The notes under the pieces were generated by a model that saw nothing but the letters and a program-made list of their open reading frames with translations, did no database searches and was not told where the DNA came from. A DNA stretch of 64,000 nucleotides from positions 248,001 to 312,000 of the forward strand of contig NC_010168.1 of assembly GCF_000018885.1 (NCBI RefSeq), read 5' to 3'. This stretch comes from Renibacterium salmoninarum ATCC 33209. Lineage in GTDB: Bacteria > Actinomycetota > Actinomycetes > Actinomycetales > Micrococcaceae. How positions within the stretch are numbered: the stretch's first letter is position 1; the number at the start of each line of letters is the position of its first letter. Both the position numbers and the translations under genes were made by a program. Of the stretch, positions 50,579 to 61,185 are shown in pieces.

Positions 50579-51685
50579 CTAGCAGCTAAGGTTTCCGCCA
50601 GGATCAACGCCAAGAACACCAGCGATGTTCTTGTAGTAATTGATCCGGGCATTACGTGAATCTGCGCCATTTCCGTTGCACTCCAAGCCGCCATTGATTG
50701 AACGAATGGTTTCACCGAAGCCGCGATTTTGTACAATCGAGTCGTGGCTGGAGGTACTAGCGCCGCCACTTTGCGTATTCCAGTACCACAGGCCAGTTCC
50801 CCAAGCGAGGGTTGGGTTGGTAGCTACCTGATCCGGGTTATTCAACAGATCGAAGCCCAGTGAGTCTCCGGCAGCCTTGTAGTTGTAGTTCCAGCTCAGT
50901 TGCAACGATCCGCGACCGTAATACTGATCGCCGCCGGCTGGGCAGCCGTAAGGCTGGCTGCGATCACAGTAGTGCGGGTAGTTAGCGGTGTTCAGTTCGC
51001 GGAGGTACTGCAAGCTGCCGGTCTCGTGTTGCACGTTAGCCAGGAACGCAGCGACCTCGCGTTTCTTGGTTGCGTCGTCGCCAGTGGTGGCGAACGCTGG
51101 GTACTTCTTTGCGCCGCTCACCAAGCCTTGGTAAGAGTAGGTCGAATTCCGGTTCGGGAAGAGCTGATTGAACTGTGCTTCGGAGATTGGGAACTCAGAG
51201 TTCGACGGCGGGTTTCCGCTGGGGTGCACGGTCCACTTTTGGTTGGGGTTTCCGGTGCAATCCCAGATCATCAGCCGGGTACCGTTATCTGATTTCTGAC
51301 CCTCGGCGTCGAGACAGCGGTTGGCCGCCGGGTTGACGATTTCGCTGGCATTCGAGAAGGCCCATTTTTGGTTGGCGCTATTGGCGCAGTCCCAGAGTTG
51401 GACCTTGCCTCCGTTGCTGGTGGACCGATCGACAATGTCTAGGCACTTGCCCAGCATACGAATCGACTGGTCATCTCCGATAGTGATCTGCTGGGCGTTG
51501 GTGCCATTGCAGTCATAGATCTGAACAGCAGTACCGTTATCTGATTTGCCAGCGGCTGCATCAATGCATTTGCCGCCGATGCCAGTGATGGTGCCGGTTG
51601 TAGCGGCCTGGGCTGCGCCGGGCGCGGCTACCAGGAGAAGGGCTGCGGCCGCGGAAGCCGTCAGCAGGGCGAGAAGTTTTTTCAC
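50579..51685 (-). CDS. Secreted ricin-B-lectin (CBM13) / GH19 chitinase
   Basis: The start is probably GTG 51685 (MKKLLALLTASAAAALLLV) after AAAGGATC; an upstream ATG at 51715 is less likely. The 368-residue product has a signal peptide, a ricin-type beta-trefoil (residues about 30-155, QxW motifs in NQKWAF and NQKWTV), a short Pro-Asn linker and a GH19 catalytic domain. The catalytic Glu is expected in NVQHETGSL, with YYGRGSLQLSWNYNY also typical. It should cut chitin, or perhaps peptidoglycan-like glycans. It is intact and divergent from the iol locus. Confidence 0.92.
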   Translation of the reverse strand: MKKLLALLTASAAAALLLVAAPGAAQAATTGTITGIGGKCIDAAAGKSDNGTAVQIYDCNGTNAQQITIGDDQSIRMLGKCLDIVDRSTSNGGKVQLWDCANSANQKWAFSNASEIVNPAANRCLDAEGQKSDNGTRLMIWDCTGNPNQKWTVHPSGNPPSNSEFPISEAQFNQLFPNRNSTYSYQGLVSGAKKYPAFATTGDDATKKREVAAFLANVQHETGSLQYLRELNTANYPHYCDRSQPYGCPAGGDQYYGRGSLQLSWNYNYKAAGDSLGFDLLNNPDQVATNPTLAWGTGLWYWNTQSGGASTSSHDSIVQNRGFGETIRSINGGLECNGNGADSRNARINYYKNIAGVLGVDPGGNLSC

Positions 51686-51878
51686 TGCAGGGTGATCCTT
51701 TCGAGCTGTGAACACGAGATCAAATGGGGGGTACCTGAAGTGCGAGCGATTGCAGGAAGAGTCTTTCGCCCGCTGTTATTGATTACAAGGGCTAATGAAA
51801 GATTTCCACTGATTACCGCAATTTTTGTGGAAAGTACGTACGTAGCGAATTGCTGCGAAAAATTTGGTTAATGTAAAT

Positions 51879-51906
51879 ATGTCCTGACAAAGCTTTGACA
51901 GGACAT
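51879..51906 (+). promoter_or_regulatory. Candidate IolR operator upstream of iolC
   Basis: A 28-bp near-palindrome has outer arms ATGTCCTG and CAGGACAT and an AAAGCTTT centre, with one mismatched pair in each half-turn. It ends 25 bases before the iolC start. The decamer TGTCCTGACA recurs in inverse orientation upstream of the GntR gene (59578-59587), which points to a common regulator. The rest of 51686-51930 shows no gene. Confidence 0.6.
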
Positions 51907-51930
51907 AACTTCTGCGGCAAAGTATGTGAT

Positions 51931-52925
51931 GTGCCACATGAAATCCTGACCATGGGTCGAATCAGCGTTGACATCTACCCCAATGACATCGGGGTAGATC
52001 TTGAAGAGGTGTCTAGTTTCGGTAAGTATCTGGGTGGCTCACCCAGCAACGTTGCGGTCGCAGCCGCTAGGCACGGTCGCGCGAGTGCGGTAATCACCGG
52101 CACCGGCAATGATCCGTTCGGAAACTATACTGCATCAGCAGCTGAAAAAATTTGGTGTGGCTGACGAATTCGTTTTCACCGATCCCAGCTGGCCTACGCC
52201 GGTAACCTTCTGTGCGATCAAACCGCCGGATGATTTCCCGCTCTATTTCTATCGACAACCCACGGCACCAGATCTACAGCTGGAACGTCACAATATTCCG
52301 GTAAGCGCAACAAAAGAAGCCCAGATTTTCTGGTTCACCATCACAGGCCTCTGCCAAGAACCCAGCCGAGATTCGCATCTTTACGCGCTCGAAGCACGGC
52401 CGAAGTCGGGCCTTGCCGAAGGCCAACACACCATCGTGGACCTAGATTATCGGCCGATGTTTTGGGGTTCAGCGGCCCAAGCGAGGGAGCAAATTGAGCT
52501 AATTTTGCCGCAGGTGACCGTGGCTATCGGCAACGCCGAGGAGTGCGCAGTGGCCGTCGGAACGGGCACTCCCGATGAGCAAGCTGACCGGCTGCTCGCC
52601 GCGGGCGTGCAGATCGCCGTCGTGAAGCTTGGTGCTAGCGGTGCGTTAGCCAAAACAGCGACCGAAAGAGTTATTTCCGCCCCCCGTTCCGGTGCAGACG
52701 CTTAATGGCTTGGGTGCCGGTGACTCTTTTTGTGGCGTGTTTTGTCACGGATTGCTCGCTGGTTGGCCACTGGCGCGAAGCTTAGATTTTGCCAATGCGG
52801 CCGGCGCAATTGTCGCCTCCCGGCTCTCTTGTGCGGATGCGATGCCAACGTCAGCAGAAGAGATCGAGCTACTCACTGAGCGCGGTCGTTTCCCGGCGTT
52901 AGAAGGGCCCACAAGCAATGACTGA
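51931..52925 (+). pseudogene. iolC: 5-dehydro-2-deoxygluconokinase, two frameshifts
   Basis: GTG 51931 (MPHEILTMGRISVDIYPNDIGVD) begins a PfkB-family kinase. An extra A near 52129 shifts the frame after GNDPFGNY (expected LHQQLKKFGVADEF). The second frame runs to a run of six Cs at 52680-52685, one too many, after which the third frame gives VQTLNGLGAGDSFCGVF, containing the PfkB catalytic GAGD motif, to 52925. The kinase phosphorylates 2-deoxy-5-keto-gluconate in inositol catabolism. It overlaps the next gene by eight bases. Confidence 0.9.
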
Positions 52926-53802
52926 TTATCAAGAACTCAGCCGGATTCGTCTAGAAGACCCGGCCGCAGTAGCCCGAGCCGCGGTTAGCCGTCGAAAACA
53001 TCCTGGCGTCAAAGCCGGGCAACAGAACTTCATTGTGGCGGCAGACCATCCAGCCCGGGGAGCGCTCGCCGTCGGCAGCCAACCCGTCGCAATGGCGGAT
53101 CGGCGTGAATTATTGGCTCGGTTGCAGACCGCGCTAGCGAATCCCGCGGTGGACGGCGTGTTGGCTTCACCAGATATTTTGGATGACTTGCTGCTACTGG
53201 GTGCACTTGAAGGAAAGCTGATCTTTGGCTCGATGAACCGCGGCGGCCTATCCGGTTTGGTCAATGAAATTGACGATCGATTTACCGCACATACCGCGGT
53301 CGCGCTGAAGAAGATCGGCGCCAATGGCGGCAAAATGCTCACCCGAATCTGTTTTGATGATCCCAATACCGCCTCGGCGCTGGAAGCTTGCGCGCACGCC
53401 GTCGATTCGTTGGCTGAGCAGGAACTCATCGCGATGATCGAGCCGTTTATCTCGGTTCGAAACGCGGACGGAAAGATCAGCAACGATTTGAGTTCGGACG
53501 CGGTGATCAAATCGATGGTAATTGCTTCGGGTCTAGGCTCAACCAGCGCCTATAGCTGGCTCAAGATTCCAGTGGTCGCGGAGATGGAACGAGTCGTGGC
53601 GGCGACCACGCTGCCAATAGTGTTGCTGGGCGGCGATCCGGATGGCGATCCGGATGATACTTTCGCAAGCTGGCGTGAGGCGCTCGCATTGCCTCAGGTG
53701 CAAGGGCTGACAGTTGGCCGAAGTCTGCTCTACCCGCCCGACGGCGACGTCGCGGCCGCCGTCGCAATCGCCGCGTCGCTCTTGCAGCAGACAGGACACT
53801 GA
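52918..53802 (+). CDS. Cgl0158-type (beta/alpha)8-barrel protein, aldolase-like, of the iol cluster
   Basis: The 294-residue protein (MTDYQELSRIRLEDPAAVARA) is open throughout. FIVAADHPARGALAVG and ANGGKMLTRICFDD with MIEPFIS fit the class I aldolase-like barrel that accompanies iolC in actinobacteria and is often annotated as a deoxyribose-phosphate aldolase relative. It is plausibly the aldolase step producing malonate semialdehyde and dihydroxyacetone phosphate, but this is an inference from position. Upstream and downstream genes are both broken. Confidence 0.75.
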   Translation: MTDYQELSRIRLEDPAAVARAAVSRRKHPGVKAGQQNFIVAADHPARGALAVGSQPVAMADRRELLARLQTALANPAVDGVLASPDILDDLLLLGALEGKLIFGSMNRGGLSGLVNEIDDRFTAHTAVALKKIGANGGKMLTRICFDDPNTASALEACAHAVDSLAEQELIAMIEPFISVRNADGKISNDLSSDAVIKSMVIASGLGSTSAYSWLKIPVVAEMERVVAATTLPIVLLGGDPDGDPDDTFASWREALALPQVQGLTVGRSLLYPPDGDVAAAVAIAASLLQQTGH

Positions 53803-55736
53803 CCACAGCGCAGGCCCTTGTTGCCTTCCTAGCTAATCAATTCACCGTTGATCGAATCGACGGGCAGGAATATCGGAAACGACTCATTCCGGGCACTTTC
53901 GGTATCTTCGGGCACGGCAATGTGGCCGGGGTGGGCCAGGCGTTCAAACAAGCTCAAGTGCATGATCCGACGATGATGCCTTACTACCCGGGACGAAACG
54001 AACAAGCCCAAGTGCATCAGGCAGTTGGCTACGCCCGGCACACTCGGCGCCGCGCCACTTTCGCGGTAAGCACTTCGATCGGTCCCGGCTCCACAAATAT
54101 GGTGACCGGCGCTGCCTTGGCCACCACAAACCGATTGCCAGCCTTGCTGCTACCTTCAGATATTTTTGCCACCAGGGTTGCCGACCCGGTTTTGCAGCAA
54201 CTCGAGCGGTACGACGCTGGCGACGTCTCGGTAAACGACGCTTTCCGCCCGGTTTCCAAGTACTTTGACCGAGTGTCTCGCCCAGAGCAATTATTTTCCG
54301 CCTTACTCAACGGCTTGCGCGTGCTCACCGACCCGGCTGAGACCGGCGCCGTGACCATCAGCTTGCCGCAAGACGTTCAGGCCGAAGCCTTTGATTTTCC
54401 CGATGAGTTCCTGGCAGAGCGCGATTGGCGGATCCGTCGGCCTGATGCCGAACGCGAAGATATTGCCGAAGCTGCCCGTCGTATCCGCGCAGCGAAATGT
54501 CCCCTCATCATCGCCGGTGGCGGAGTGCTCTAAGCCTTTGCTGATGAGCAATTGGCTGCGCTCGCAGCCGAGACCGGAATCCCGGTAAGCAACACGCAGG
54601 CCGGCGTTGGCGTGCTGCCTTGGGATCATCCGCAAGCCCTGGGCGCGATTGGTTCCACTGGCACTACTGCGGCTAATGCAATAGCAGCCCAAGCAGATCT
54701 GATTATTGGCATTGATACCCCGTGTGAAGACTTCACCACGGCATCCCGAACTGCTTTTCAGAACCCTGCCGCGCGCTTTATCAACATCAATGTGGTGGCC
54801 TTCGACGCCTATAAGCTGGGCACATCGCTGCCAATAGTTGCTGATGCCAGGAAGGCGCTTGCCGCGCTTCGCGGAGCGCTTTCCGGATTCCAGGTTGCTG
54901 CCAGGCTGACTGCTGAAATCGGAGCGCAAAAAGCTCGTTGGAACGCCATTTCAGATGCGGCTTTTGCCGAGCATTCTAGCACCGGAAATAGCCAAAATGC
55001 AATCATCGGTGCGGTAAATAATTCGCTGGATGCTCGTGATGTACTGGTCTGCGCGGCGGGGTCCTTGCCGGGCGACCTGCATAAACTCTGGCGAGTGCAA
55101 GATCCGTTCGGTTACCACGTGGAGTACGCCTACTCGTGCATGGGTTACGAAATTCCTGGTGGTCTGGGTGTGAAGCGAGCGGTGCTTGCCGAGCATGCAG
55201 AGGCCGGAACTCCGCTGCGCGACGTCGTCGTGATGGTGGGGGATGGCTCCTATCTGATGATGCACACTGAGCTGGTCACGGCAGTAGCTGAAGGTATCAA
55301 GCTCATCGTCGTGCTGATCCAAAATCATGGTTATGCCTCAATCGGCGCGTTGTCCGCCTCGCTTGGTTCGCAAAGATTCTGCACCCAATATCGCGCATTG
55401 GAATCGGCGCAGCACAGTTTTGACGACGGCCCTGTGCTGCCGGTCGATTTGGCCGCTAATGCTGCTTCGCTCGGCGTTCGGGTAGTCAAAGCGGCCGACG
55501 TCGAAGAGCTTTCCGCTGCACTGGGCGAAGCCAAAGCGCTTCCAGAAGGTAGCGGCCCGATCTTGATTTATCTCGAGTCGGATCCATTATTAGATGGACC
55601 AAGCTCGGAGTCCTGGTGGGATGTTCCGGTCGCGTCAACCTCAGAATTGGCGAGTAAGCAGGAGGCGTACCGGACGTACATTGAGCACAAGACTAAGCAA
55701 AGACCGCTTCTGGGCGATCCGGAGCAGTCTTCATGA
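53799..55736 (+). pseudogene. iolD: Trihydroxycyclohexane-dione hydrolase, interrupted by TAA
   Basis: Coding begins LTTAQALVAFLANQFTVDRID at CTG 53799, which overlaps the previous stop as CTGA where ATGA would be expected, so the start codon also seems altered. The thiamine-diphosphate enzyme fold follows (FGIFGHGNVAGVGQAF, PYYPGRNEQAQVH). In-frame TAA at 54531-54533 follows AGGGVL, then the frame resumes AFADEQLAALAAETG and runs through the ThDP-binding VMVGDGSYLMMHTEL to 55736. The enzyme hydrolyses the ring of the diketo-inositol intermediate. Confidence 0.9.
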
Positions 55737-55756: not shown

Positions 55757-55821
55757 GAAACTCTGCACCACATTTCGGGCTTAAAACCGCAGAATAAGGC
55801 CGAAATGTGGTGCAGCGTTTC
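55757..55821. repeat. Long palindrome, family A copy 3
   Basis: Arms of about 27 bp with two mismatches (55757-55783 and 55795-55821) read GAAAC-TCTGCACCACATTTCGG and complement. They are clearly related to the palindromes at 1373-1433 and 2240-2308 (CTGCACCACTTTTGG). It sits between iolD and iolE within one operon, so it cannot simply be the operon end; it may be an inserted repeat or an mRNA-processing site. Confidence 0.8.
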
Positions 55822-55839
55822 AGGGGTTGGGAAGATGGG

Positions 55840-56757
55840 ATGGATATGAAGGAGAACAAGTTGATCATTGGAACTGCGCCAGATTCTTGGGGCGTCTGGT
55901 TTGCCGACGATTCGAAACAAACGCCCTGGCCACGTTTTCTCGACGAAGTGGCCGAGTCCGGCTACAAATGGATCGAACTAGGCCCGTACGGTTACCTGCC
56001 TACCGATCCCGCCAGGCTTGCCGAGGAGCTTGCAGAACGCGATCTGAAAATCACCGCCGGCACAGTATTTACCGCATTCCACCGTGGTGCCCGTGAGGGT
56101 GAAGCCGCCTGGGAATCAGCACGAAGAGTTGCCGAACTCACGGCCGCAATGGGCGGTGAAAACATCGTGGTGATTCCGGCGATGTGGCGCGACGATGTCA
56201 CTGGCGAGGCCGTCGAAAGCGGCGAGCTCTCGAGCTCGCAGTGGCAAGACCTCTTTGCCGGGCACAACGAACTTGGCAGAGTTCTGCGCTCGGACTACGG
56301 CCTGCAACAACAATTCCACTCGCATGCTGATTCGCATGTCTGTGCCCAGCCAGACATTGAACACTTTTTGCAAAACACCGACGCTGATCTGGTTACTTTG
56401 TGCTTAGATACTGGGCACGCAGAGTATGGTGGCGCATCCAGTCTGGCATTGATCAATAAATATCCGGAGCGAATCGGCTATTTACATCTCAAACAGATCG
56501 ATCCGTAGATCCTAGCGACCGTTCGCGAGCAAAACCTCACCTGGGCCGCAGCGAATTTGGCTGGTGTGATGACTGAGCCACCCTCGGGGCTGCCAGATCT
56601 TTCCGCCGTGATCGACGCTGTCGAACGCCTTGACCGGCCGATCTTCGGCGTAGTGGAACAAGATATGTACCCCTGCGATTTCGCGAAGCCAATGCCCATT
56701 GCGAAGCGCACCAAAGACTATTTACTCTCGTGTGGTTCTCGCACGCGGATTGTTTGA
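55840..56757 (+). pseudogene. iolE: Inosose dehydratase, interrupted by TAG
   Basis: ATG 55840 (MDMKENKLIIGTAPDSWGVWF) starts a xylose-isomerase-fold enzyme with the family motifs WIELGPYGYLP and CLDTGHAEYGG. TAG at 56506-56508 follows LHLKQIDP. The same frame continues ILATVREQNLTWAAANLAG to 56757. One nonsense change (probably from a Glu GAG) removes the last quarter. The enzyme dehydrates 2-keto-myo-inositol. Confidence 0.9.
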
Positions 56758-56765
56758 GAGGACTT

Positions 56766-57767
56766 GTGAGCTTGAACGTAGCGGTCATTGGAGCTGGCCG
56801 AATGGGCGCGGATCATGTTCGCCGCTTACACGAGAGCATCAATAACGCCACGGTTGCCGCCGTCGTCGATATTGATCTGGACCGAGCTAAAGCAGCTACT
56901 GAAGGTACTGGTGCCTTGGCCGTCGCCAGCCTCGCTGAGGCTTTCGCCGTCGAAGGTGTCAATGCGGTTTTGATTGCCACGCCCGGCTTCTTGCACGAGG
57001 AGGCGCTGTACCAAGCCCTGCAGCGCGACGTGCCGATCCTATGTGAAAAGCCGATGACGCCGGATGCTGCCTCCGCTTGGCGGGTGGTGCAGGCCGAGGT
57101 TGCTCTGGGTCGTCAACGAATCCAAGTGGGCTTCATGCGTCAGTTCGACGCTGGCTACCAATCGCTCAAATCTGAAATCGAGGCTGGCGCAGCTGGCAGC
57201 CTGTTGATGTTGCATTGCGCGAATCGTAATGCCTCAACGCTGGCAGATTTCACCGAGCCAATGCTGATCAATGACTCGGTAGTGCACGAGTTCGACGCAA
57301 TTCGATTCTTTACCGGCGAGGAAATAACGTCGGTCCAGGTCCAGGTCCAGGTCCAGGTCCAGGTCCAGGTCCAGGTCCAGCGCGGTAAGCGCTCCTCGCT
57401 TGCCCCTGAGGGAATCAGCGACCCGCAACACGTGCTGATCGAGACCGAATCAGGAATCCTGGCCGATGTGGAAATCTTCGTCAATGCTCGTTACGGCTAT
57501 GAAGTGGCCACTCAAGCGGTTTTCGAAAACGGCGTGCGCAGTATTGGTGCTGGCGAAGTCACGCCAAGCTTCATCGAACGATTTGCTGCCGCTTACGATG
57601 CCGAAGTGCAGGCTTGGGTTGACGCTGCGTTGCACGGTGAAATCGGCGGGCCGTCCGCTTGGGATGGCTACGCCACTGCCGCTTGTTGCGAAGCGGGAGT
57701 GGCGGCCCAGCGCTCGGGGCAGCGGACCGCCGTCGTACTGGCAGCGAAGCCGGAGCTCTATCGCTGA
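56766..57767 (+). CDS. iolG: myo-Inositol 2-dehydrogenase (Gfo/Idh/MocA family), with a Val-Gln repeat
   Basis: GTG 56766 (MSLNVAVIGAGRMGADHV) follows GAGAGGA. The 333-residue NAD-dependent enzyme has the Rossmann motif, the EKP motif (LCEKPMTPD) and the active-site region NDSVVHEFDAIRFF. It oxidises myo-inositol to 2-keto-myo-inositol, the first step of the pathway. Residues 190-205 are eight Val-Gln dipeptides encoded by eight perfect GTCCAG repeats, in a beta-strand where homologues normally have one or two. The frame remains open, but folding may be altered. It is 8 bases after iolE. Confidence 0.9.
   Translation: MSLNVAVIGAGRMGADHVRRLHESINNATVAAVVDIDLDRAKAATEGTGALAVASLAEAFAVEGVNAVLIATPGFLHEEALYQALQRDVPILCEKPMTPDAASAWRVVQAEVALGRQRIQVGFMRQFDAGYQSLKSEIEAGAAGSLLMLHCANRNASTLADFTEPMLINDSVVHEFDAIRFFTGEEITSVQVQVQVQVQVQVQVQRGKRSSLAPEGISDPQHVLIETESGILADVEIFVNARYGYEVATQAVFENGVRSIGAGEVTPSFIERFAAAYDAEVQAWVDAALHGEIGGPSAWDGYATAACCEAGVAAQRSGQRTAVVLAAKPELYR
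57333..57380 (+). repeat. (GTCCAG)8 hexanucleotide microsatellite inside iolG
   Basis: Eight uninterrupted, identical GTCCAG units (48 bases), encoding (Val-Gln)8. Unit length is a multiple of three, so gain or loss of units changes length without a frameshift. It is a natural candidate for strain-to-strain length variation. Confidence 0.97.
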
Positions 57768-57790
57768 GTTGTCGGACCGCGATCCGCAGT

Positions 57791-57867
57791 CCACCCCCAC
57801 TTCGGATGCCGTACCAGCTAGTCGGCACGGCATCCGAATGCTGAAAATGCATCCGAAGTGGGGGTGG
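57791..57867. repeat. Nested palindrome between convergent iolG and iolB, family B copy 2
   Basis: Outer perfect 18-bp arms (CCACCCCCACTTCGGATG at 57791-57808; complement 57850-57867) surround a second inverted repeat (GGATGCCGT..ACGGCATCC). The right part GAAAATGCATCCG is also found in the family B palindrome at 14900-14977. It may terminate both iolG and iolB transcripts. Confidence 0.85.
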
Positions 57868-57882
57868 AGTCGCTAGCAACCG

Positions 57883-58782
57883 TTAGGAGCCGAACGGCAG
57901 TCTGGGATCTAGTTCTTGAGTGGCCCAGCTGGAACGCAGCCAGCCATGATGGGGGTCGTCGCTGATAAGCCACTCGCGCTTTGCCCCTGGACCCGCCATT
58001 ACGTTTAGGTAGTACAGGTCATAACCGGGTGCCGCCATCGCTGGTCCATGCCAGCCGTAAGGAACCAGGACGACGTCGCCGCTGCGCACTTCGGCGGTAA
58101 CGTCGATCGGCCGTTCGTCTGAGGCATAGACTCGCTGATAGCCGATGGCGTCCGTCCCGGCGGGCGCACCCGGGGTTGGCTGAGATTCAAAGTAGTAGAT
58201 TTCCTCCAGCGAGCTTTCGCCGGCCTTTTCCTCATCGTGTTTATGGGGCGGATAAGAGGACCAGTTTCCAGCGGGGGTGAGTACTTCACAAACAATGAAG
58301 CGGTCCGCGCTCAGCGTCGCTGGCGTGCCAAAATTATGAACTTGGCGGGAGCAATTGCCGGCGCCTCGCAGTTCAACCGGGATGTCCTCGGCAGCGAGGT
58401 ATGCGGCGGGAAAGGTTTCAGTTGCGGGCGCGCTCGCAATGGCAACTCGGCCGCCGTCATCGCTGCTGATGGTAAGCGTGGTCCAGATTCCGGCATAGAC
58501 CACGTCAGTGCGTCCCGCGAAGACCGAATCTCGGCCAGTCAGATCGAACTTTTGCACGCCGTCGCCGCCCGCTAGCTGAACGGTAAACGAGCCGGCTAGC
58601 TGGATGACCAATCGCTCTTCCGATGCGCCAGGAATCTGTACCGCATCGCCAGCGGTCAACGTGGCTACTTTGAGCCCGGTGTGTTGCCAGCCGGGCGCTT
58701 TGGTTTGTGAGTCAAAGCCGCCCAGCGAGATGTCCCATTCGCCTTGCTGTGCGCTTCCCTTGGGGGATACCCATTCAGTCAT
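57883..58782 (-). CDS. iolB: 5-deoxy-glucuronate isomerase
   Basis: The 299-residue double-cupin protein is open throughout. Cupin metal motifs are visible in YPPHKHDEEKAGESSLEEIYYFE and later VPYGWHGPAMAAPGYDLYYLNVMAG. It isomerises 5-deoxy-glucuronate to 2-deoxy-5-keto-gluconate, the substrate of the (broken) IolC kinase. It lies seven bases downstream of the gntR-type gene on the same strand, so the two form one transcript, convergent to the main iol operon. Confidence 0.9.
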   Translation of the reverse strand: MTEWVSPKGSAQQGEWDISLGGFDSQTKAPGWQHTGLKVATLTAGDAVQIPGASEERLVIQLAGSFTVQLAGGDGVQKFDLTGRDSVFAGRTDVVYAGIWTTLTISSDDGGRVAIASAPATETFPAAYLAAEDIPVELRGAGNCSRQVHNFGTPATLSADRFIVCEVLTPAGNWSSYPPHKHDEEKAGESSLEEIYYFESQPTPGAPAGTDAIGYQRVYASDERPIDVTAEVRSGDVVLVPYGWHGPAMAAPGYDLYYLNVMAGPGAKREWLISDDPHHGWLRSSWATQELDPRLPFGS

Positions 58783-58789
58783 GCCGCAG

Positions 58790-59524
58790 TCACCTTTGCA
58801 CCAGGGTTAGTTCAAAACTGTATGAATCTGCTCGGTAGACGTGCCGACCAGTTTCGATCGTTCGGCCAGTGTCATCGACGGCGGTGCGCTCCATGGTCAC
58901 TAGCGCTGCACCGGGATCAGTGCCCAGCTGAGTTGCCTGATACTTATTGGCTATCGTGGCGCCGATGCGTTGATGGGCAAGCGAAAAATTAATACCGGCT
59001 TCGCGTAGCAGCGCGTAAAGTCCGTTCGCTTTCAAAGCGGCTTCATCGAGATCGGCGACGTCGTCGCGCACCCAGTTTTCCATGAGCGCTAACGGCTTGC
59101 GCCCTACTTTGCGGAGCCTACTGAAGTGAAATACCTTCGCTTCTGCGGCTAGTTCCAATTTTTCTCGGATCGGTGCGGCGGCTTCGATATGAGCAAAGCC
59201 CAGCACTTGAGTGCTAGGTTTTCCACCGTCACGAATCAAATCATCGTAGAGGCTGGAAAGCTCAAGGGGCCTACGCACTTGGCGGGATACCACTTGGGTG
59301 CCTACGCCGCGTTTGCGCACCAAAAGTCCAGCTCGAACCAACTCATCCATTGCCTTACGCATCGTAGGGCGGGATAGTTTTAGCTGCGCGGCGAGTTCAA
59401 TCTCGTTATCGATTCGGCTGCCCGGCGGAAGCTTTCCGGCGTGTACTTCAGCTTCAATTCCTTGGACCACTTGATGGTAGAGCGGTACTGGCGAGGATCT
59501 GTCGATCGGGATGTTCAGTGGCAC
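58790..59524 (-). CDS. GntR/HutC family regulator of the iol locus
   Basis: The 244-residue protein has an N-terminal winged helix (PLYHQVVQGIEAEVHAGKLPPGSRI, LSRPTMRKAMDELVRAGLLVRKRGVGTQVV) and a C-terminal UTRA ligand-binding domain (KLELAAEAKVFHFSRLRKV to RHVYRADSYSFELTLVQR). The start is GTG 59524. Neighbouring iolB and a shared TGTCCTGACA motif upstream of both this gene and iolC suggest it is the local inositol regulator. The signal ligand is unknown. Confidence 0.85.
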   Translation of the reverse strand: MPLNIPIDRSSPVPLYHQVVQGIEAEVHAGKLPPGSRIDNEIELAAQLKLSRPTMRKAMDELVRAGLLVRKRGVGTQVVSRQVRRPLELSSLYDDLIRDGGKPSTQVLGFAHIEAAAPIREKLELAAEAKVFHFSRLRKVGRKPLALMENWVRDDVADLDEAALKANGLYALLREAGINFSLAHQRIGATIANKYQATQLGTDPGAALVTMERTAVDDTGRTIETGRHVYRADSYSFELTLVQR

Positions 59525-59934: not shown

Positions 59935-60881
59935 TCAGACGATGAGCCTGTCGGCGGCTGCCGTGCTCTGGTAGTGATTGTAGTAGTGGTTTTCTAGCTC
60001 TACTGGTGGGATGTCTCCGCAGTACTGGTAGAGCCTTCGGTGGTTGTACCAATCTGCCCATTCAGCGGTGCCGATTTCGACTTCTTCTAGAGTCCGCCAG
60101 GGCTTGCCGGGTTTGATCAGCTCGGTCTTATAAAGCCCGTTGATGGTTTCCGCCAAGGCGTTGTCGTAACTATCACCCACAGAACCGATCGAGGGGCGGA
60201 TACCGGCCTGGGCCAGGCGTTCGGTGAAGGCCAAGGAGGCGTATTGAGCCCCGGCATCGTGATGATGAATCACCCCGGAAATCTCAGCCCCGGCCCGTTC
60301 ACGACTCCAGATTGCCTGATTAACTGCGTTGAGCACTAGCACGGTGTTCATAGAAGCACTCGCTGACCAGCCCAGGATCCTCCGAGAGTAAGCATCGATC
60401 ACGAAGGCAACATAGACCCACCCGGACCAGGTCGAAACATAGGTGAAATCAGCTACCCATAGCCGATCCGGTGCCGTTGGTGTGAAATCACGGCGGACCA
60501 AGTCCTTCGCTCGGGCCGCCTTCGAGTCTTTGATCGTGGTGCGTTTGACCTTGCCACGGACCGCACCCTGTATGCCAAGTAACCCCATGAGCCGTTCTAC
60601 CGTGCACCTGGCCACCGGCACACCTTCACGGTTCATCGCCAACCAGACTTTCCTGGTGCCGTGCACCCCGTAATTAGCGGCATACACCTTCTGGATCACG
60701 GGCTTGAGCACCTCATCACGTTGTTCTCGGTGAGATCGTGTTTTATCCACCCATTCGTAGTACGTGGACGGGGTGGTCTTCACCCCGTCCCAGTAAGCAC
60801 CTGGCAGATCGACTCGACACCCCACCGCAATCCATTATTCTCGCGGTGACCGGCATGGTCCTTGATGTATTTCACGATCAG
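59935..60881 (-). pseudogene. IS6110-like transposase OrfB, frame-disturbed
   Basis: The catalytic core is in one frame from about 60785 (GVKTTPSTYYEWVDKTRS) to DRLIV at 59935. DDE residues are present: Asp in WVADFTYV, Asp in HHHDAGAQY and Glu in DNALAET. Its N-terminal segment (LIVKYIKDHAGHRENNGLRW, QVLTG) is in a different frame, from about 60881 to 60785, and is offset +1 rather than -1 from OrfA. Two small indels therefore separate OrfA, the OrfB start and the OrfB core; this copy is probably inactive by itself. Confidence 0.65.
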
Positions 60882-61185
60882 TGTTGTGGCGGTCGAGTTC
60901 GACCGCGAAAAAAGCTGAAGCACTCCGAAGGATCGCGTTCGCCCGTTTCAGCTCAGCGTTCTCACGCCGTAACCGTTTCAGCTCGGCCGATTCCGTGCTC
61001 GTTGTTCCAGTTCTAGTACCAACATCGATCTCGGCTTGCCGGACCCATTTACGCACCGTTTCCGGCACACCCACACCCAAAAGCTGGGCAACTTTTTGCA
61101 TCGCCGCCCACTCCGAAGACGCACCCTCCATCTCCGCACGATCCTTCAACTCCTGCGGATACCGTGTCGTAGTTTTCCCTGCCAT
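60835..61185 (-). CDS. IS6110-like transposase OrfA
   Basis: The frame encodes 116 residues: helix-turn-helix (RYPQELKDRAEMEG, VAQLLGVGVPETVRKWVRQAE) and leucine-zipper-like STESAELKRLRRENAELKRAN, then ASAFFAVELDRHN. About 14 extra residues (TDREIHQGPCRSPRE) follow the point where OrfA normally ends, because of two apparent extra bases (ACAC). GCTTTTTTCG just before could be the frameshift window. Confidence 0.75.
   Translation of the reverse strand: MAGKTTTRYPQELKDRAEMEGASSEWAAMQKVAQLLGVGVPETVRKWVRQAEIDVGTRTGTTSTESAELKRLRRENAELKRANAILRSASAFFAVELDRHNTDREIHQGPCRSPRE

Follow-up and report, generated by a model that had tools for sequence, protein, structure and literature searches.

BKD305, a typing marker of Renibacterium salmoninarum, is an in-frame GTCCAG tract within an iolG-like gene

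The iol locus and the iolG-like gene

The window, i.e. the whole stretch of 64,000 nucleotides that was analysed (G+C content 56.7%), covers bases 248001-312000 of the genome and contains an iol locus. On the plus strand, a remnant of iolC (5-dehydro-2-deoxygluconokinase; 51871..52892), with homology spread across three frames, is followed by an open Cgl0159-like aldolase gene (52918..53802), iolD (53799..55736), iolE (55807..56757), and the iolG-like gene (56769..57767). Single in-frame stops interrupt iolD at 54531-54533 and iolE at 56506-56508. The earlier note on this DNA had described iolC, iolD, and iolE as broken, in agreement with these observations. On the minus strand, convergent with iolG, are iolB (5-deoxy-glucuronate isomerase; 57883..58782), which is open and exceeds the curated cut-off, and the adjoining open gene of a GntR-family regulator with a UTRA domain (58790..59524), found next to iolB also in three same-genus relatives. 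The order iolC, aldolase, iolD, iolE, iolG, with convergent iolB and GntR gene, is kept in the relatives L105, L106, and L107. In the same-genus relatives L105 and L106, the gap between iolG and iolB is about 2.2-2.3 kb.

Between the convergent iolG and iolB, positions 57790-57868 hold a 29-nt inverted repeat with 86% complementarity and a second, nested hairpin of 15 nt. No other copy of the repeat arm is found in the genome at up to two mismatches. The element is a putative shared terminator, probably acting in both directions for iolG and iolB.

The iolG-like gene is open over 332 codons plus stop, with candidate start codons at GTG 56766, TTG 56772, or further upstream. The product combines a Rossmann domain with a C-terminal alpha/beta domain and scores above the Pfam cut-offs for the Gfo/Idh/MocA oxidoreductase family (PF01408, 87.8 bits; PF22725, 50.1; PF02894, 45), while staying below the NCBIfam equivalog cut-offs for IolG (NF052679, 245.1 of 540; TIGR04380, 166.7 of 355). 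The closest solved relatives are inositol 2-dehydrogenases, with residues 1-332 aligning to 2-337 of PDB 3mz0 at an E value of 1.2e-61. The name IolG is thus given on the basis of these relatives and the iol gene order rather than of an equivalog score, and the product is best described as an IolG-like oxidoreductase, predicted to be an inositol dehydrogenase. It shares full-length homology with the bacterial IolG inositol 2-dehydrogenase/D-chiro-inositol 3-dehydrogenase (PDB 3mz0, 3nt2). In contrast to these enzymes, it carries a 12-residue insert at the end of one strand of the C-terminal domain, and it falls below the NCBIfam cut-offs.

The alignment also shows a 13-column block (the DxGPYxRxAGRWG region) after residue 260 that is absent from the window IolG and from the same-genus relatives L008, L009, and L010. 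The block is present in the eight other rows, including a fourth same-genus relative, L015.

The GTCCAG tract and its identity with BKD305

Eight perfect GTCCAG units occupy positions 57333-57380 of the plus strand, corresponding to genome positions 305,333-305,380 of R. salmoninarum ATCC 33209. TRF calls the array at 57332-57380 with a period of 6, 8.2 copies, and 100% match, the top score among the seven rows returned for the window. Read in frame, the tract encodes (VQ)8, residues 189-204 of IolG when numbered from 56769. The reading frame stays open across the tract and both flanks can be aligned to relatives. The earlier note was therefore exact in its account of a perfect (GTCCAG)8 array, and its placing of the array in frame within an otherwise normal iolG is borne out by the open 332-codon frame and the alignable flanks.

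The exact period-6 run at the tract measures 49 nt and is the longest in the window; elsewhere (beyond 57301-57420) such runs reach at most 18 nt, a length that is also the maximum among 100 sequences of 64 kb generated by a first-order Markov model. A pattern of three GTCCAG units with up to three mismatches gives six matches against 0.01 expected, all six within the tract, and the exact three-unit pattern has no match beyond the tract in the whole genome. A chance origin is ruled out by the six matches against 0.01 expected and by the run of 49 nt against a Markov maximum of 18 nt.

Table 1 of Matejusova et al. 2013 (PMC4029610) lists a VNTR locus, BKD305, with five alleles of 2.2-8.2 repeats spanning 15-51 bp in 41 isolates. 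According to that paper, the loci are named by their genome position in ATCC 33209, were amplified and sequenced in the isolates of the study, and include BKD305 as one of six in a minimal typing panel. The tract is the only TRF array with a score of at least 24 between 304.5 and 306.5 kb. Its period of 6 corresponds to the 6-bp unit implied by the table, and its 8.2 copies lie at the upper end of the published range, so that the reference genome carries the longest published allele length. Since the 305 kb position, the 6-bp unit, and the 8.2 copies all agree, the tract is identified as BKD305. The published span of 15-51 bp is about 2 bp above the product of unit and copies.

For all 16 polymorphic VNTR loci of PMC4029610, the surrounding 2 kb of sequence was retrieved and scanned with TRF. 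Most of these stretches hold other short arrays too, and the array fitting the unit of the table was chosen. All 16 loci have an array at the named kilobase with a unit within one base of the table-implied one. Copy number lies inside the published range in 14 of the 16, the outliers being BKD143 (8.2 copies vs a published 9-14) and BKD1023 (2.1 vs 1-2); counting conventions differ between TRF and the table.

Length variation at the tract and its use as a marker are thus already known since 2013. The earlier note had expected protein length to vary between strains with the frame kept, and the five BKD305 alleles of 2.2-8.2 repeats among 41 isolates (PMC4029610, Table 1) agree with this; it had also proposed the tract as a strain-typing marker, rightly, although as BKD305 it was already in print. 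Relative to that publication, the present analysis adds the gene context, the reading frame, and the ancestral state. A search of the main text of PMC4029610 for GTCCAG, CTGGAC, inositol, and RSal33209, with the unit in these two forms only, gave no match, and no description of the tract as part of iolG was found among the listed titles and abstract openings of papers on R. salmoninarum. An anonymous typing marker is now tied to a gene, with BKD305 alleles being protein-length alleles of an IolG-like enzyme.

Ancestral state and predicted structure of the insert

Two overlapping sets of homologues were compared with the window IolG. In the first, 59 genomes were searched and 18, including that of the window itself, matched at an E value of 1e-40 or better. 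The insert is absent in all 17 other homologues, and 11 of them, which are all the same-family members of the set, read V-Q-V-R at the site of the tract. The second set comprises the best 80 of at least 591 confirmed candidates; by alignment count the insert is absent in 80 of these best 80, and the stretch from VHEFD to DP measures 36 residues in 79 of them and 37 in one, compared with 48 in the window. A long VQ stretch conserved among homologues is ruled out by its absence in both sets (17/17 and 80/80, overlapping). The alignment of IolG with relatives that the earlier note had proposed as a check, counting ancestral VQ units, thus yields V-Q-V-R and no insert, and in-frame expansion confined to the Renibacterium lineage among the homologues seen is supported by these alignments.

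Match lengths point the same way. The iolG match covers 960 bp in the two closest relatives and 996 bp here, and the two lengths differ by exactly six units. In L010, a third relative, the length is 957 bp counted from residue 2, and in L015, the fourth same-genus relative, it is 999 bp because another block, without counterpart in the first three and in the window, is kept. As the relatives already read V-Q-V-R, the alignments put the net gain at six units (12 amino acids), not eight. The earlier note's statement that the tract adds (VQ)8 therefore holds for what is encoded and not for what was gained. Because the closest relatives are shorter by exactly six units, the shortest published allele, with 2.2 repeats, would be predicted to encode a protein as long as theirs. 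The marker's gene, the extra units absent from the relatives examined, and this match in length are what is new here. Knowledge of the ancestral state may help to polarise BKD305 when typing bacterial kidney disease strains; it changes little biology.

At least four GTNCAR units occur somewhere in the genome of 25 of 294 other members of the family. One such place per genome was inspected in 20 of the 25, and no iolG homologue is close to any of them, giving no sign of recurrent VQ expansion in iolG at these places; the remaining five genomes, and second places in three of the 20, were left out of this reading.

An AlphaFold2 model built with 37 aligned sequences has a mean pLDDT of 93.2 and a pTM of 0.91. 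The first two VQ pairs are taken up by a strand (186-192), and residues 193-219 form a loop whose blocks have average pLDDT values of 65 (191-200) and 64 (201-210), with values below 50 at 201-204. In the relative L026, the corresponding two strands are linked by a 14-residue loop, 195-208. The aligned sequences carry no information on the insert itself. According to the model, the fold is kept and the greater part of the insert falls in a loop of low confidence, and the predicted IolG fold plausibly tolerates the insert.

Origin of the tract

We regard the tract as a simple-sequence VNTR, BKD305, in an otherwise normal iolG, lengthened by slippage from two units, with a probability of about 95%. 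In the Renibacterium lineage, an ancestral strand end reading Val-Gln-Val-Arg would have become two GTCCAG units, presumably through change of the arginine codon to a glutamine codon, which created the second unit. Only afterwards, in the order that we infer, would replication slippage, the ordinary explanation for a perfect tandem repeat, have added further units. Each such step would add or remove one Val-Gln pair without shifting the frame, and for this reason length changes at the end of the C-terminal-domain strand would be tolerated and may be nearly neutral.

Decay of the iol pathway may have lifted constraint on iolG, and this alone may have let the tract expand, much as the earlier note had suggested. 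This idea is compatible with slippage, and we hold it tentatively as the less probable course. It is in line with the broken iolC, iolD, and iolE and with an expansion confined to the Renibacterium lineage among the homologues seen, but iolG itself is open and its amino-acid change is not raised: over 315 codons without the tract, dN is 0.053 on the Renibacterium branch vs 0.063 on the sister branch. The Renibacterium-branch values for iolD (0.054), iolE (0.046), the aldolase (0.060), iolB (0.061), and the regulator (0.089), obtained with iolC and the stretch 50582-51712 left out, show no difference between broken and open genes that dates the decay. As the broken iolD and iolE are equally unremarkable, the test has little power for a recent release, and dS is mostly saturated, so that branch dN/dS is not interpretable. 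Other published VNTRs of the same genome also lie within long open frames (stop-to-stop frames, not annotated genes), and three of them, in frames of 292-401 codons, have a unit length that is no multiple of 3; by TRF, the unit is divisible by 3 in 10 of the 16 published polymorphic loci. Decay of the iol locus is therefore not needed to explain a VNTR within a gene, and a causal link between the broken iolC, iolD, and iolE and release of the tract is possible but unsupported.

It is very unlikely that the number of VQ pairs acts as a tuning knob, in which a (VQ)n extension of the strand, specific to the lineage and varying rapidly, would alter the stability, assembly, or activity of a catabolic enzyme and selection would keep the variability. 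The in-frame 6-bp unit, the alternation of hydrophobic and polar residues, the start of the tract in a predicted strand of the C-terminal domain, and the five alleles carried by 41 isolates (PMC4029610, Table 1) would fit such a role, and if (VQ)n length had an effect, strains of this fish pathogen would differ from one another in a graded way. However, downstream inositol genes are broken, which makes a role of pathway flux improbable, and in the model the fold is kept and the insert lies for the most part in a loop of low confidence. An artefact of the reference assembly, to which short perfect repeats are in general open, is scarcely credible given that the 2013 study reports loci amplified and sequenced in isolates and a range up to 8.2 repeats (PMC4029610).

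Phase-variable contingency loci are simple repeats whose change in length switches a frame or a promoter. The tract resembles them as a simple coding-region repeat of changing length, but its 6-bp unit lies in frame within the coding region and a change in length switches no frame.

Two further observations concern VNTRs in coding frames. The 30-bp repeat that makes up BKD494 and BKD526 also occurs in the window, where a putative transposase-like orfA on the minus strand (60835-61185) contains about 1.5 units of it (ELKRLRRENAELKR). These two loci sit in two other copies of the orfA frame, as seen on comparing the window copy with L133 and L134, which places two published markers inside a multicopy element. 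The window copy is without five residues (VRMVA) found in the BKD494 and BKD526 copies. Near the start of a putative lipase/esterase-like open frame, BKD23 (L128) forms an in-frame Ile-Ala-Ala run, which parallels the iolG tract as a short repeat within coding sequence.
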